From Nitriliruptoraceae bacterium (GTDB lineage Bacteria > Actinomycetota > Nitriliruptoria > Nitriliruptorales > Nitriliruptoraceae), in NCBI GenBank assembly GCA_018401275.1, contig JAGYKW010000001.1, positions 1 through 64,000 on the forward strand: 64,000 nt of DNA, in the 5' to 3' direction. Made by a program: the position numbers and the translations under genes. A model generated the notes under the pieces. It saw nothing but the letters and a program-made list of their open reading frames with translations. It had not been told where the DNA came from and ran no database searches. Below, piece by piece: positions 27,477 through 39,871 of this stretch; the stretch's first letter is position 1; each line of letters begins with the position of its first letter.

Positions 27477-27680
27477 GCGGGCTCCGAGGGGGAGAGGGAG
27501 GTTCCGACGGTACCGCCGGGCCCTGTCCGGCCCATCCGGACCACCGCGAGCCAGGCGCGCGCAGAGCGCACGCTCAGGCCGGTGCGGTCGCGTCCGCCCC
27601 TCCGCTGCGGCCACACTGCGTCCATGCATCGTGAGCCCGCCGTCCCGACCGCCCTCCCCGCCGCCGGCGGGGACGTCGTT

Positions 27681-27734
27681 GTGGTCGCGGTGACGGCCGT
27701 GCTGCTCGCGCTGTCGCTCCTGCTCCTCCTTTGA
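27681..27734 (+). CDS. leuA leader peptide (leucine-rich, attenuation)
   Basis: A 17-residue ORF starting GTG with GGCGGGGA 7 bases upstream and ending [11 protein letters not shown] then TGA. Eight of its last ten codons are leucine. The frame is open further upstream to an ATG at 27624, but that start has no ribosome site. It lies 143 bases before leuA on the same strand and is followed 3 bases later by a strong hairpin, as expected for a leucine-sensing attenuator. No promoter could be recognised in the 200 bases between lgt and this ORF. Confidence 0.65.
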
Positions 27735-27876: not shown

Positions 27877-29543
27877 ATGGCACGCCCCGTCGACCACACC
27901 GTCGCTGACGTCACCCCTCGTGATGTCGTCATCTTCGACACCACGTTGCGTGACGGTGAGCAGTCGCCCGGCATCTCGCTCGACGCGCATGAGAAGGTCG
28001 AGATCGCCGAGCAGCTCGCACGCCTGCGCGTCGACGTCATCGAGGCCGGCTTCCCGATCGCGTCGGCGGGCGACCTCGCCGCCGTCCGAGCGGTCGCCGA
28101 GCAGGTCGGGAACGCCCCGCGCGCTGCTGCTGGGCCGGGCGGCAGCGAGGGCGAGACCGACGACCGCGAGCCCCCGTCATCGCAGCGCTCGCACGCGCGC
28201 TCGAGGGCGACATCGAAGCCGCATGGAAGGGCATCGAGCCGGCGCGTCGTCGCCGCATCCACACGTTCCTCTCGACGTCGGACATCCACCGGAAGTACAT
28301 GCTGCAGGCGAGCGAGGACGAGATCCTCCAGCAGACCATCCGTGCGGTCGAGATGGCCAAGGCCTACACCGACGACGTCGAGTTCTCCCCGCAGGACGCG
28401 ACCCGCACCGACTTCGCGTTCCTCGTCGACATCGTCGCCGCGGCCGTCGAGGCCGGTGCGACGACCGTCAACATCCCTGACACCGTCGGCTACGCCATCC
28501 CGTACGACTTCGGGAACTGGATCGCCGAGATCCAGCGCCGCATCCCCGCGATCGCGGAGCGCGGCGTCGTACTGAGCGTGCACTGCCACAACGACCTCGG
28601 ACTCGCCGTCGCGAACTCGCTCGAGGCGGTGCGCAACGGTGCGCGCCAGATCGAGGTGGCCGTCAACGGCATCGGTGAGCGCGCCGGGAACTGCTCGCTC
28701 GAGGAGGTCGTGATGGCGATCCGCACACGAGCGGACCTGCTGGGCCGCGACCACGGTCTCGACACGCGTGAGCTCACGCGCACGTCGCGGCTCGTCTCGA
28801 GCCTCACCGGCTACTCGGTGCAGAAGAACAAGGCGGTCGTCGGCGAGAACGCGTTCGCGCACGAGTCCGGCATCCACCAGCACGGCGTGCTCGCCGACCG
28901 GCTCACCTACGAGATCATGCGCAGCGAGGACGTCGGTGCAGCGGGCTCGCAGATCGTGCTCGGGAAGCACTCGGGGCGCCACGCGTTCTTCAAGGCCGTC
29001 GAGGAGCTCGGTCACACGCTCACCGACGAGGAGGGCGCGATCGCGTTCCAGCGCTTCAAGGAGCTGGCGGACCGCAAGGGCCTCGTCAGCTCGGAGGACC
29101 TCGAGGTCATCCTCGTCCCCACCGGACCGTCGGACACGTCGCGCGAGGACCGGCTCGTCAGCATCCGCGTGTCCTCGGGGACGGGCGAGACCCCGCAGGC
29201 GGAGGTCGAGCTGGAGCTGCACGGGGATGCGGAGGCTGGCACCCAGCCGCGTCGCGTGCGGGTCGCGTCGGAGGGCGACGGCATGGTCGACGCCGTCTGC
29301 AAGGCCATCCGTGGCGCGCTCGAGCGTCCCGACGTGCGACTGGGCACCTACCAGGTCGGTGCGGTGACCGGCGGGCTCGACGCGCTCGCCGAGGTCATGG
29401 TGACCGTCGCCGACGAGCAGGGCGCGACGTTCACCGGCCGTGGCGTGTCCACCGACGTGGTCGAGGCCTCGGGCATCGCCTACCTCGATGCACTCAACCG
29501 GTCGCGTCGGCTGACCGCGCGAGGCGCGGAGTTCCGCGCCTGA
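27877..29543 (+). CDS. leuA: 2-isopropylmalate synthase, with an apparent frameshift near 28171-28176
   Basis: The reading frame starts at 27877 (AGGAG six bases upstream) with [14 protein letters not shown] and IEAGFPIAS, then loses homology after EGETDDREP. Homology resumes one frame over with [19 protein letters not shown] and [17 protein letters not shown] and continues to the regulatory C-terminal domain ending at 29543. The switch falls at a run of five C (28171-28175); one more C would join the two halves as [12 protein letters not shown]. All catalytic parts are present, including the [11 protein letters not shown] metal-binding His pair. A segment of about 20 residues before the break ([18 protein letters not shown]) is unusual for LeuA. 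Sequencing error, recent mutation or recoding are all possible. Confidence 0.85.
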
Positions 29544-36682: not shown

Positions 36683-37744
36683 GTGGCTGGCTACCGCATC
36701 GCAGTGATCGGCGGCGACGGGATCGGTCCCGAGGTCGTCGGCGAGGCGCTGAAGGTCCTCGACGCCATCGAGGGGCTCGAGGGCTTCACGACCGAGCGGA
36801 CCGAGTTCGATCTCGGTGGGCGCCGCTACCTCACCACCGGTGAGGTCCTGTCGGATGCGACGCTCGAGGAGCTGCGCACGTTCGATGCGATCCTGCTCGG
36901 CGCGGTCGGCACCCCCGACGTGCCACCGGGCGTTCTGGAGCGTGGGCTGCTGCTCAAGCTGCGCTTCGCCTTCGACCAGTACGTGAACCTGCGGCCCGTG
37001 AAGCTCTATCCGGGCGTGACCAGCCCCATCGCCGGCCTGACACCCGAGCGCTGCGACATGCTGATGGTGCGCGAGAACACCGAGTCCGTGTACGCGGGCG
37101 CCGGTGGTGGCCTCTACGTCGGTACGCCCCATGAGGTGGCGACGCAGGAGAGCGTCAACACCCGCCACGGGGTGGAGCGGGTCCTGCGCTACGCGTTCGA
37201 GGCCGCACGCCGCCGTCGCGGCCACCTGACGATGGTGCACAAGACGAACGTGCTCATCCACGCTGGTGGCCTGTGGCAGCGCACCTTCGACGAGGTGGGT
37301 GATGCTGACTTCCCTGACGTGAAGCGCGACTACGTGCACGTCGACGCCGCCTGCCTCTACCTCGTCACCCAGCCGGAGCGCTTCGACGTGGTCGTCACCG
37401 AGAACCTCTTCGGCGACATCATCACCGATCTCGCCGCTGCCGTGCAGGGCGGGATGGGGCTCGCAGCGAGCGGCAACCTCGATCCGACCGGTGCGGCACC
37501 TTCGATGTTCGAGCCGGTCCATGGCTCTGCGCCCGACATCACCGGAACGGGTCGTGCGGACCCGGTCGCTGCGATCATCAGCCTCGGGCATCTGCTCGAC
37601 GCGCTGGGTGAGGCGGGCGCGGCGGCACGGGTCGACCGAGCGGTGTCCGCGCTGCTCGGCGAGCGTGATGGGAAGGTGCCCGACGGCACCACGATGACCA
37701 CGGCGGACGTGGGCGACCGGGTGGTCGCCCTGCTCGGCGCATGA
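36683..37744 (+). CDS. leuB: 3-isopropylmalate dehydrogenase
   Basis: A 353-residue NAD-dependent beta-decarboxylating dehydrogenase of leucine synthesis. [47 protein letters not shown] and [11 protein letters not shown] are the family blocks. GGGGG precedes the GTG start. It is separated from leuACD by the minus-strand murL operon. It overlaps a possible early dodecin start. Confidence 0.94.
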
Positions 37745-37985: not shown

Positions 37986-38008
37986 TACTGTCGCCACCTC
38001 CACAGGAG
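37986..38008 (+). promoter_or_regulatory. promoter and ribosome site of the cimA leader
   Basis: TACTGT (37986-37991) fits the TAnnnT -10 pattern and begins 6 bases after the dodecin stop. AGGAG (38004-38008) is the ribosome site of the leader ORF. No good -35 is seen (TTCCGC at the right distance). Confidence 0.45.
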
Positions 38009-38013
38009 CTTCC

Positions 38014-38118
38014 GTGATCCTCGCACCGCAGCGTCGCCGCACCGACCGGAACGATCTCCGGCCGTCGGCCTCGGCTGCGCGCGTGCGCGCGATCATCATC
38101 ATTCGGACGCTCCCGTAG
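38014..38118 (+). CDS. cimA leader peptide with four consecutive isoleucine codons
   Basis: A 34-residue ORF, GTG start, AGGAG six bases upstream. It ends RVRAIIIIRTLP then TAG: ATC ATC ATC ATT, four isoleucine codons in a row, followed by a stable hairpin. The next gene makes the first intermediate of isoleucine synthesis from pyruvate. Codon run, ribosome site, spacing and context make this a strong candidate for an isoleucine-responsive attenuator. The rest of the peptide is Arg-rich and unremarkable. Confidence 0.75.
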   Translation: MILAPQRRRTDRNDLRPSASAARVRAIIIIRTLP

Positions 38119-38218
38119 CCGGCGCGTGCCGGGCTGCGGGAGCGGCTCGGCGGATCCCGGCCTCTCCTGCACCCGGCACCTCCGGTCCGCACGTGTGCCC
38201 GGGATGTCCGGGGGAGGG
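38108..38218 (+). promoter_or_regulatory. cimA attenuator region
   Basis: CGCTCCCG (38108-38115), right after the isoleucine codons, pairs with CGGGAGCG (38137-38144); an inner GCCGGC/GCCGG stem can extend it. Further on, ATCCCGG and CCGGGAT can pair, and CCTCCGG (38179-38185) can pair with the GGGGGAGGG ribosome site of cimA (38210-38218). Control may therefore work by hiding the ribosome site rather than by termination; no U-tract is present. Confidence 0.5.
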
Positions 38219-38224
38219 ATCGAC

Positions 38225-39871
38225 GTGACGATGACCACCGGTGGGGACGCCCTGCTGCCCGCTCCACGCCCCGGCGTGGACCTGTACGACACGACGCTGC
38301 GCGACGGCACCCAGCGCGAGGGCGTGAGCCTGTCCGTCGAGGACAAGCTGCGCGTCGCACGGACGATGGACCAGCTGGGCGTCGCCTACATCGAGGGCGG
38401 CTGGCCGGGTGCGAACCCGAAGGACACCGTGTTCTTCGCGCGCGCCGCTGACGGCGAGCTCGCGCTCGAGCATGCGACGCTCGTCGCGTTCGGGATGACG
38501 CGCGCTCCGGGACGTGCTGCGGAGGACGACCCGCAGCTCGCGGCGCTGCTCGAGGCGCGCACCGACGTCATCACGCTCGTGGGGAAGTCGTGGGGCTACC
38601 ACGTCGACGAGGCGCTGCGCACCTCACGCGCGGAGAACGTCGCGATGGTCGCCGACTCGATCCGCCACCTGCGCGCCCAGGGCCGTCGCGTCATGTTCGA
38701 CGCGGAGCACTTCTTCGACGGCTGGGCCCGTGACCGTGACTACGCCCGCGAGGTCGTCGTCGCCGCTGCCGAGGCCGGCGCGGAGGCCGTCGTGCTGTGC
38801 GACACGAACGGCGGTGCGATGCCGTGGGACGTCGCCGAGATCGTTGCCGAGATGGTCCGCACGATCGGTCCGGAGGCGCTGGGCGCTGACGTCGGGCTGC
38901 ACTTCCATGACGACGGTGGCTGCGCGGTCGCGAACTCGCTGCTGGGTCTCGAGGTCGGGGCGCGCCAGGTCCAGGGGACGGCGAACGGCATCGGCGAGCG
39001 CTGCGGGAACGCGAACCTGTTCACCGTGCTCGGGGACCTGCAGCTCAAGCGCCGGCTCCCGCTGGTCACTCCGGAGCGGCTCGAACGGCTGACCGAGATC
39101 AGCCACTCGATCGCGGAGCTGTGCAACCAGTCAACACCGTCCGTGTCGCCCTACGTCGGTCACACCGCGTTCAGCCACAAGGCCGGGCTGCACGCCTCCG
39201 CGCTCGCGAAGGCGCCTGACATGTACCAGCACATCGATCCGGACGTGGTCGGCAACCGGCAGCGGCTGGTCGTCAGCGAGCTCGCGGGCCGCGCGAACGT
39301 GCTGATGAAGGCGGCCGAGCTCGGCCTCACGATCACCGACGAGCAGGCACGCACCGTGCTGCAGGAGGTCAAGGAGCGTGAGTCGCTCGGGTGGTCCTAC
39401 GAGGCGGCCGACGCGTCGTTCGGGCTGCTGCTGCGGCGCTGCGCGGGGCTGCTCCCGCCCGACCAGGAGCCGTTCCGCACGCTGCACTTCCGTGTGGCGG
39501 TCAGCGGCGGCTCCGACGAGCAGGGTCCGCTCGCCGAGGCGACCGTGGCCGTCGAGGTCGCGGGCGAGCGGCGGCTGGGTGCGGGCGAGGGCAACGGTCC
39601 CGTCGACGCGCTCGACCAGGCGTTCCGCAACGCGGTGAACGGGACATGGCCGCAGCTGCGCGACGTGCATCTCGTCGACTACAAGGTGCGCATCCTCGAG
39701 GCGACCGCCGGCACCGACGCGACCACGCGCGTGCTGATCACCTCGAGCGACGGCGGGCGCATGCTCGACACGGTCGGCGTGCACCAGAACGTCGTCGAGG
39801 CGTCATGGCTCGCGCTGTCCGACGCGTACGTCCATGCGATCATCGGTGCCACCGGGGAGGTCCGAGCGTGA
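38225..39871 (+). CDS. cimA: (R)-citramalate synthase
   Basis: A 548-residue enzyme that condenses pyruvate and acetyl-CoA to citramalate, the threonine-independent entry to isoleucine. [20 protein letters not shown] and [13 protein letters not shown] distinguish CimA from LeuA and homocitrate synthase. The metal site is [13 protein letters not shown], and a C-terminal LeuA-type allosteric domain (about 415-540) is present. GGGGGAGGG precedes the GTG; an ATG two codons on is an alternative. It is coupled to the FAH-family gene by GTGA. Confidence 0.94.

Follow-up and report, generated by a model that had tools for sequence, protein, structure and literature searches.

The window analysed here is a stretch of 64,000 nucleotides from a Nitriliruptoraceae bacterium (positions 1 to 64,000 of contig JAGYKW010000001.1, G000:C1 in our genome set), the genome of which totals 1.73 Mb in 39 contigs. 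Between positions 36683 and 39871 of its plus strand lie, in this order, leuB, a dodecin gene, a spacer that contains the leader described below, and cimA. The product of the last gene matched TIGR00977 with 623.3 bits (E 2.6e-187; cut-off 450), which bears out the gene call of the initial annotation, and its start codon is a GTG at 38225. CimA commits pyruvate to isoleucine, and threonine is not needed for this route. Matches over the cut-off of the ilvA model TIGR01127 were found in 52 of the 66 genomes of the class, taken to be Nitriliruptoria, and in none of the window's genus (G000-G003), where G002 and G003 gave weak matches only. Thus, this genus may make its 2-oxobutyrate mainly via cimA.

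To our knowledge, the genetic control of cimA has been little described. Searches of open-licence literature gave no report of control of cimA by a leader peptide, attenuation, a T-box or a riboswitch; the earlier statement was that no described isoleucine attenuator of a citramalate synthase gene was known to its author. The reannotation of S. lividans yielded eight leader peptides, none of which was described at cimA (PMC8079986). The features found at the locus are:

37986..37991, plus strand: -10-like hexamer TACTGT, putative leader promoter
38004..38008, plus strand: Shine-Dalgarno (SD) sequence AGGAG of the leader ORF
38014..38118, plus strand: leader peptide ORF of 34 codons plus TAG, ending ...RAIIIIRTLP* (asterisk, stop codon); the end IIIxxLP* is conserved class-wide
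38092..38103, plus strand: regulatory isoleucine codons ATC ATC ATC ATT
38108..38144, plus strand: helix P1 (5' arm 38108-38119, 3' arm 38133-38144), proposed starvation (ON) structure
38129..38150, plus strand: hairpin P2 (38129-38137 / 38142-38150) with a GGGA loop, proposed replete (OFF) structure
38130..38175, plus strand: hairpin P3, a longer alternative suggested by single-sequence folds
38210..38218, plus strand: ribosome-binding site GGGGGAGGG of cimA, seen in the sequence
38225..39871, plus strand: cimA, citramalate synthase, with HMGL-like and LeuA_dimer domains

Leader ORF and isoleucine codons

The 34-codon ORF with AGGAG and a GTG start that the initial annotation had reported is present (translation MILAPQRRRTDRNDLRPSASAARVRAIIIIRTLP*, final codons CTC CCG TAG), as is the run of four isoleucine codons near its end, and the first coordinate given there, 37986, is base 1 of TACTGT. 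Among 29 leader starts that were scored for expression signals (28 from members of the family plus that of L028 from a neighbouring family), 21 had a TAnnGT hexamer at most 48 nt from the presumed start, for which shuffles expect 1.3, and 21 had GGGAG, AGGAG or GAGGG directly 5' of the start. A shorter leader of 11 codons from the GTG at 38083 is disfavoured, as it has no SD while the long start and its SD are conserved in relatives. In the families f4 and f5, the leader start codon was seen by eye to follow shortly after a CACACT- or CACAAT-like hexamer, which looks like leaderless transcription. In this respect these leaders resemble ilvL of C. glutamicum, whose start codon and transcription start are reported to be one nucleotide apart (PMC11857589).

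The cimA upstream regions compared were drawn from the genus, the family and the class. An ORF with at least two isoleucine codons among its last 10 was found in 46 of the 51 class regions, compared to 1.1 in dinucleotide shuffles of the same regions, and one with at least three in 38 of the 51 (shuffle mean 0.1). Counted from the stop codon, isoleucine occupied codon -5 in 44 of 45 loci, codon -6 in 41 and codon -7 in 35. Of the 44 isoleucine codons at -5, 25 ended in T and 19 in C; that the third base varies while isoleucine stays argues for selection on the amino acid itself. The background codon usage, taken from window genes and from the cimA genes of relatives, was 438 ATC and no ATT in cimA from 33 loci and 140 ATC and no ATT in seven window genes. 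The ATT share of the leaders is thus far above background, and this excess suggests that decoding speed may be selected as well. Translated spacers of the family end in RAIIIIRTLP*, ASIIIIATLP*, RAIAIIIGPLP* or GASIIIPPLP*, and those of other families in AIAIIIIRSLP*, TGIIIRPLP*, ATIIIGPLL* or VIIIRRSR*. The comparison of relatives that the initial annotation had proposed found the ORF end, the isoleucine codons and the stem discussed below kept through genus, family and class.

Competing RNA structures and their distribution

The 8-bp stem noted earlier behind the isoleucine run is present, with CGCTCCCG at 38108-38115 facing CGGGAGCG at 38137-38144, and is the core of the longer helix P1, whose 5' arm is made of the leader codons Leu-Pro-stop. 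In 27 aligned sequences, 87.7% of the P1 cells were paired versus 82.8% in shuffles (0 of 500 as high), five pairs had double changes, and the covariation score exceeded that of every shuffle. Compensatory changes include CTCCCG/CGGGAG to CTTCCG/CGGAAG in L019 and to CTCCTG/CAGGAG in L133, as well as CCCGA/TCGGG in L119 versus CCCGT/ACGGG in L120. The folding z-score of the P1 region averaged -3.7 and was below -1.6 in 95%.

The second structure, P2, reads CCGGGCTGC-GGGA-GCGGCCCGG in most members of the family. Its cells were paired at 77.5% with four double-change pairs, values that 2-5 of 500 shuffles equalled, so that it is more weakly supported than P1, in part because the register of its outer pairs differs from family to family; longer outer stems were found by eye, such as GGTGCC/GGCACC in L129 and CTGGTGC/GCACCAG in L119. 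P1 and P2 are mutually exclusive, as both use bases 38133-38144. Of the attenuator in the initial annotation, the stem thus stood, while its partner proved to be the competing hairpin P2, which had been missed. In the window, L005, L006, L030 and some other loci, single-sequence folds also predict P3, in which the 3' arm of P1 would pair with a downstream C-rich segment. The folds of the window's genus favour P3; with mean duplex z-scores of -0.67 in the family and -1.59 elsewhere, the modelling evidence for it is weaker than that for P1 and P2. At gathering score, Rfam matched two tRNAs only in the window and tRNAs only in 13 other loci, and a known RNA family was therefore rejected for the cimA leader. 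GC-rich spacers fold readily and often contain short ORFs, but a chance combination of ORF and hairpin is refuted by conservation over several families at levels far above shuffles, and its probability is negligible.

A covariance model of the leader element matched 50 of the 66 class genomes, as a rule with one strong site per genome; weak reverse-strand matches at the same place were ignored because the hairpin is palindromic. The strong sites whose downstream genes were checked adjoin cimA, except in G055 and G042; beside the sites so checked, G062, G063 and G065 also have sites. In G055 and G042, which belong to one genus of the class, cimA lacks the leader, and the element stands instead before a gene for a protein of about 200 residues (L168:473-1063, and L169) without a Pfam match even at E 10. 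The relocated elements end in LIIRSVT* and RIIRSAT* and keep the isoleucine codons, most of P1 and P2 with its GNRA loop, here GCGA. By eye the downstream protein resembled an ACT-like regulatory domain, an assignment that the Pfam search did not support. A weak match to the element also occurs in G036, beside G055 and G042. In the class, cimA without the leader was found in four members of one genus and in G004, and G045 and G057 had neither a cimA match nor the element. In the phylum sample, the model gave a single weak match outside the class (G144, E 3.3e-4). Hence the core claim of the initial annotation, an isoleucine-codon leader with an attenuator before cimA, is sustained by the conserved ORF end, isoleucine codons and stem, by the hexamer and SD that precede the ORF, and by the occurrence of the element almost only before cimA.

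Outside the class, an independent architecture was found before cimA of Klenkia, Modestobacter, Nakamurella, Pseudonocardiales, a Micromonosporaceae MAG and Sciscionella: short ORFs with isoleucine codons close to their stop and, behind these, a stem and then a U-tract terminator. It, too, speaks for isoleucine attenuation of cimA. Eight such U-tract cimA loci served to build a model that matched 47 of 397 phylum genomes, and cimA adjoined the site in 14 of the 30 loci fetched, 11 of them from one genus that we take to be Streptomyces. The five presumed Streptomyces leaders that were read all contained MIIGS or TIIGS. Other sites of this model lie before ilvB and have Val/Leu/Ile leaders. Some of them are in the window's own family, which thus combines an ilvB element that has a U-tract with a cimA element that has none: the seven Nitriliruptoraceae leaders of the ilvB type (L190, L192, L194, L197, L200, L201 and L202) end in GILVVT*, VVVLVIVG*, VVVLVVVG* and similar, followed by a stem mostly with a T-rich terminator tail.

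A structured RNA that responds to another input, a protein or a ligand, and in which the isoleucine codons are incidental would account for the strong RNA conservation, for the covariation of P1 and P2 and for the final codons CTC CCG, which are kept mainly as RNA. Given, however, that codons -5 to -7 still encode isoleucine despite third-base changes, that ATT is enriched, that the SD and start codon are conserved, and that the different cimA architectures of other Actinomycetota also have isoleucine codons near the stop, we consider this explanation very improbable.

Further upstream sequences were noted on the way. Frankia-type cimA genes (L045, L046, L049, L050, L062 and L073) are preceded by another conserved stretch, ...GEPVSVARSGR*PMGPGAW..., which has no isoleucine codons and no Rfam match. 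In the window, an ORF with a terminal leucine run lies at 27624-27734 on the plus strand before leuA (at about 27877), with CACACT shortly 5' of its ATG, and it looks like a LEU-element leader (PMC1262725). The leuA gene itself is apparently frameshifted at 28100-28300, its N-terminal part being at 27916-28182 and the rest in another frame, which may be a genuine lesion or an error of sequencing or assembly.

From the leader to cimA expression

The initial annotation had noted that CCTCCGG, found at 38179-38185 between the leader and the SD of cimA, can pair with that SD. Translational attenuation on this basis, in which CCTCCGG/GGGGGAGGG would leave the SD open in one leader state and hide it in the other, would fit the C-rich intergenic stretches that some members have opposite GGAGG (for instance, CCTCTCCTC/GAGGAGAGG of L014) and the masking of SDs by T-boxes and riboswitches in Actinobacteria (PMC1262725). 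Between the intergenic stretch and the SD of cimA, however, pairing was about at shuffle level (mean z -0.34). When the region was folded with P1 free, forced or blocked, predicted SD accessibility hardly depended on P1 and P2: the unpaired probability was 0.40 with P1 formed and 0.41 with P1 blocked, and the difference in opening energy was small and of the wrong sign for a switch that turns on at isoleucine starvation. SD masking is not supported on these grounds, and translational attenuation through it appears unlikely.

No TTTT was found between P2 and cimA in any of the 44 loci, so that an intrinsic terminator of the usual kind was rejected as well. Because canonical U-tract terminators are enriched nowhere in the window, the missing U-tract does not exclude termination. 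The stretch 3' of P2 contains 46% C and 29% G, compared to 34% and 37% in the upstream control region, which is partly coding; this C-rich stretch might suit Rho. In a Rho-dependent variant, the released ribosome would bare this stretch and Rho would load there, P1 and P2 tuning exposure only. The base composition and the lack of enriched U-tract terminators across the window favour this variant; C-richness is, however, a weak sign with a partly coding control region, and the role of Rho is itself putative, so that we regard it as somewhat unlikely. It has the same sensor and direction as the ribosome-mediated attenuator proposed below and differs in the last step alone.

The proposed attenuator and known systems

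We propose that the cimA leader is probably an isoleucine-responsive, ribosome-mediated attenuator of a variant without a U-tract, and very probably a switch that raises the pathway when isoleucine is short. Transcription would begin shortly 5' of the leader ORF, the translation of which would need charged tRNA-Ile at codons 5 to 8 before the stop. When isoleucine is short, the ribosome would stall on these codons and leave the Leu-Pro-stop stretch free, so that P1 could form and cimA would be expressed. When isoleucine is plentiful, a ribosome at the stop codon would cover the 5' arm of P1; the 3' arm thus freed would form P2 (or P3, which is longer), and expression of cimA would be cut. Judging from usual ribosome footprints, a ribosome stalled at the first isoleucine codon would have its leading edge near the last one and leave P1 free.

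The ORF, its isoleucine codons with their ATT bias, P1, P2, the mutual exclusion of the two and the link to cimA come from the sequences and their comparison; from them we infer stalling and the direction of the response in the cimA leader, and an action of P2 mainly on transcription, as a U-less or Rho-assisted terminator, rather than on the ribosome site of cimA. As in other attenuators, a translatable ORF with codons for the product is combined with exclusive structures, of which P1 overlaps the ORF end. Several points run counter to this proposal. P2 is without a U-tract, whereas the attenuator-like elements at ilvB in the same family have one; the outer pairs of P2 are out of register across families; P1 begins only 4 nt past the last isoleucine codon, and a ribosome stalled at that codon would already cover part of its 5' arm; and the cimA genes of four members of one genus and of G004 have no such leader. 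It should also be noted that changing the leader codons of S. coelicolor ilvB left regulation unaffected, so that a leader peptide alone is no proof of classical attenuation (PMC1262725).

New here are the target, cimA, and, within a familiar type of regulation, the variant that lacks a U-tract. It is reasonably likely that a class-wide isoleucine-sensing module (IIIxxLP* with P1 and P2 on one arm), movable between genes, attenuates cimA without an intrinsic terminator and makes up, together with the U-tract version elsewhere in Actinomycetota, a widespread undescribed circuit. If so, sensing of isoleucine only would explain how one route is tuned where citramalate and threonine routes coexist, and how the probable main isoleucine route is controlled in the window's genus, which has no ilvA over the cut-off. 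The leader would then also offer a natural isoleucine sensor and a test of attenuation in lineages with few U-tract terminators, and ATT, absent from the cimA genes but common in the leader, a direct means of studying how decoding speed acts in attenuation.

Leaders before trp, cys, ilvB, leuA, leuS and trpS have been described in Actinobacteria (Seliverstov et al., 2005; PMC1262725). The cimA leader shares with the ilvB attenuators of this phylum (ilvL of C. glutamicum, MTIIRLVVVTARRLP; the ilvB-II motif) a short ORF with branched-chain codons near the stop (PMC10272879; PMC11857589; PMC1262725) and RNA hairpins that overlap the ORF end; the C. glutamicum leader, too, ends in -LP. It differs from them in its target, in codons that are mostly isoleucine alone, in having no Rfam match, in its two hairpins on one arm and in lacking an intrinsic terminator with a U-tract. 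The Mycobacterium cys leader ORFs are alike in their run of product codons near the stop and in the absence of a conserved intrinsic terminator; they concern another amino acid and target and lack conserved terminator hairpins, whereas P1 and P2 of the cimA leader are conserved (PMC1262725). The LEU element before leuA similarly has a leader with product codons, a target of the same enzyme family and no obvious terminator, but it is a pseudoknot in which the codon run pairs with the SD (PMC1262725). The codons of the cimA leader are for isoleucine, and inspection of this leader by eye revealed no pairing of the codon run with the cimA SD.

In the classical trp, his and ilv attenuators of enterobacteria, the regulatory codons directly precede an arm of mutually exclusive hairpins. 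The cimA leader resembles these systems in the placement of its codons just 5' of such an arm, and differs from them in having no U-tract after the proposed OFF hairpin and no established upstream 1:2 protector hairpin.
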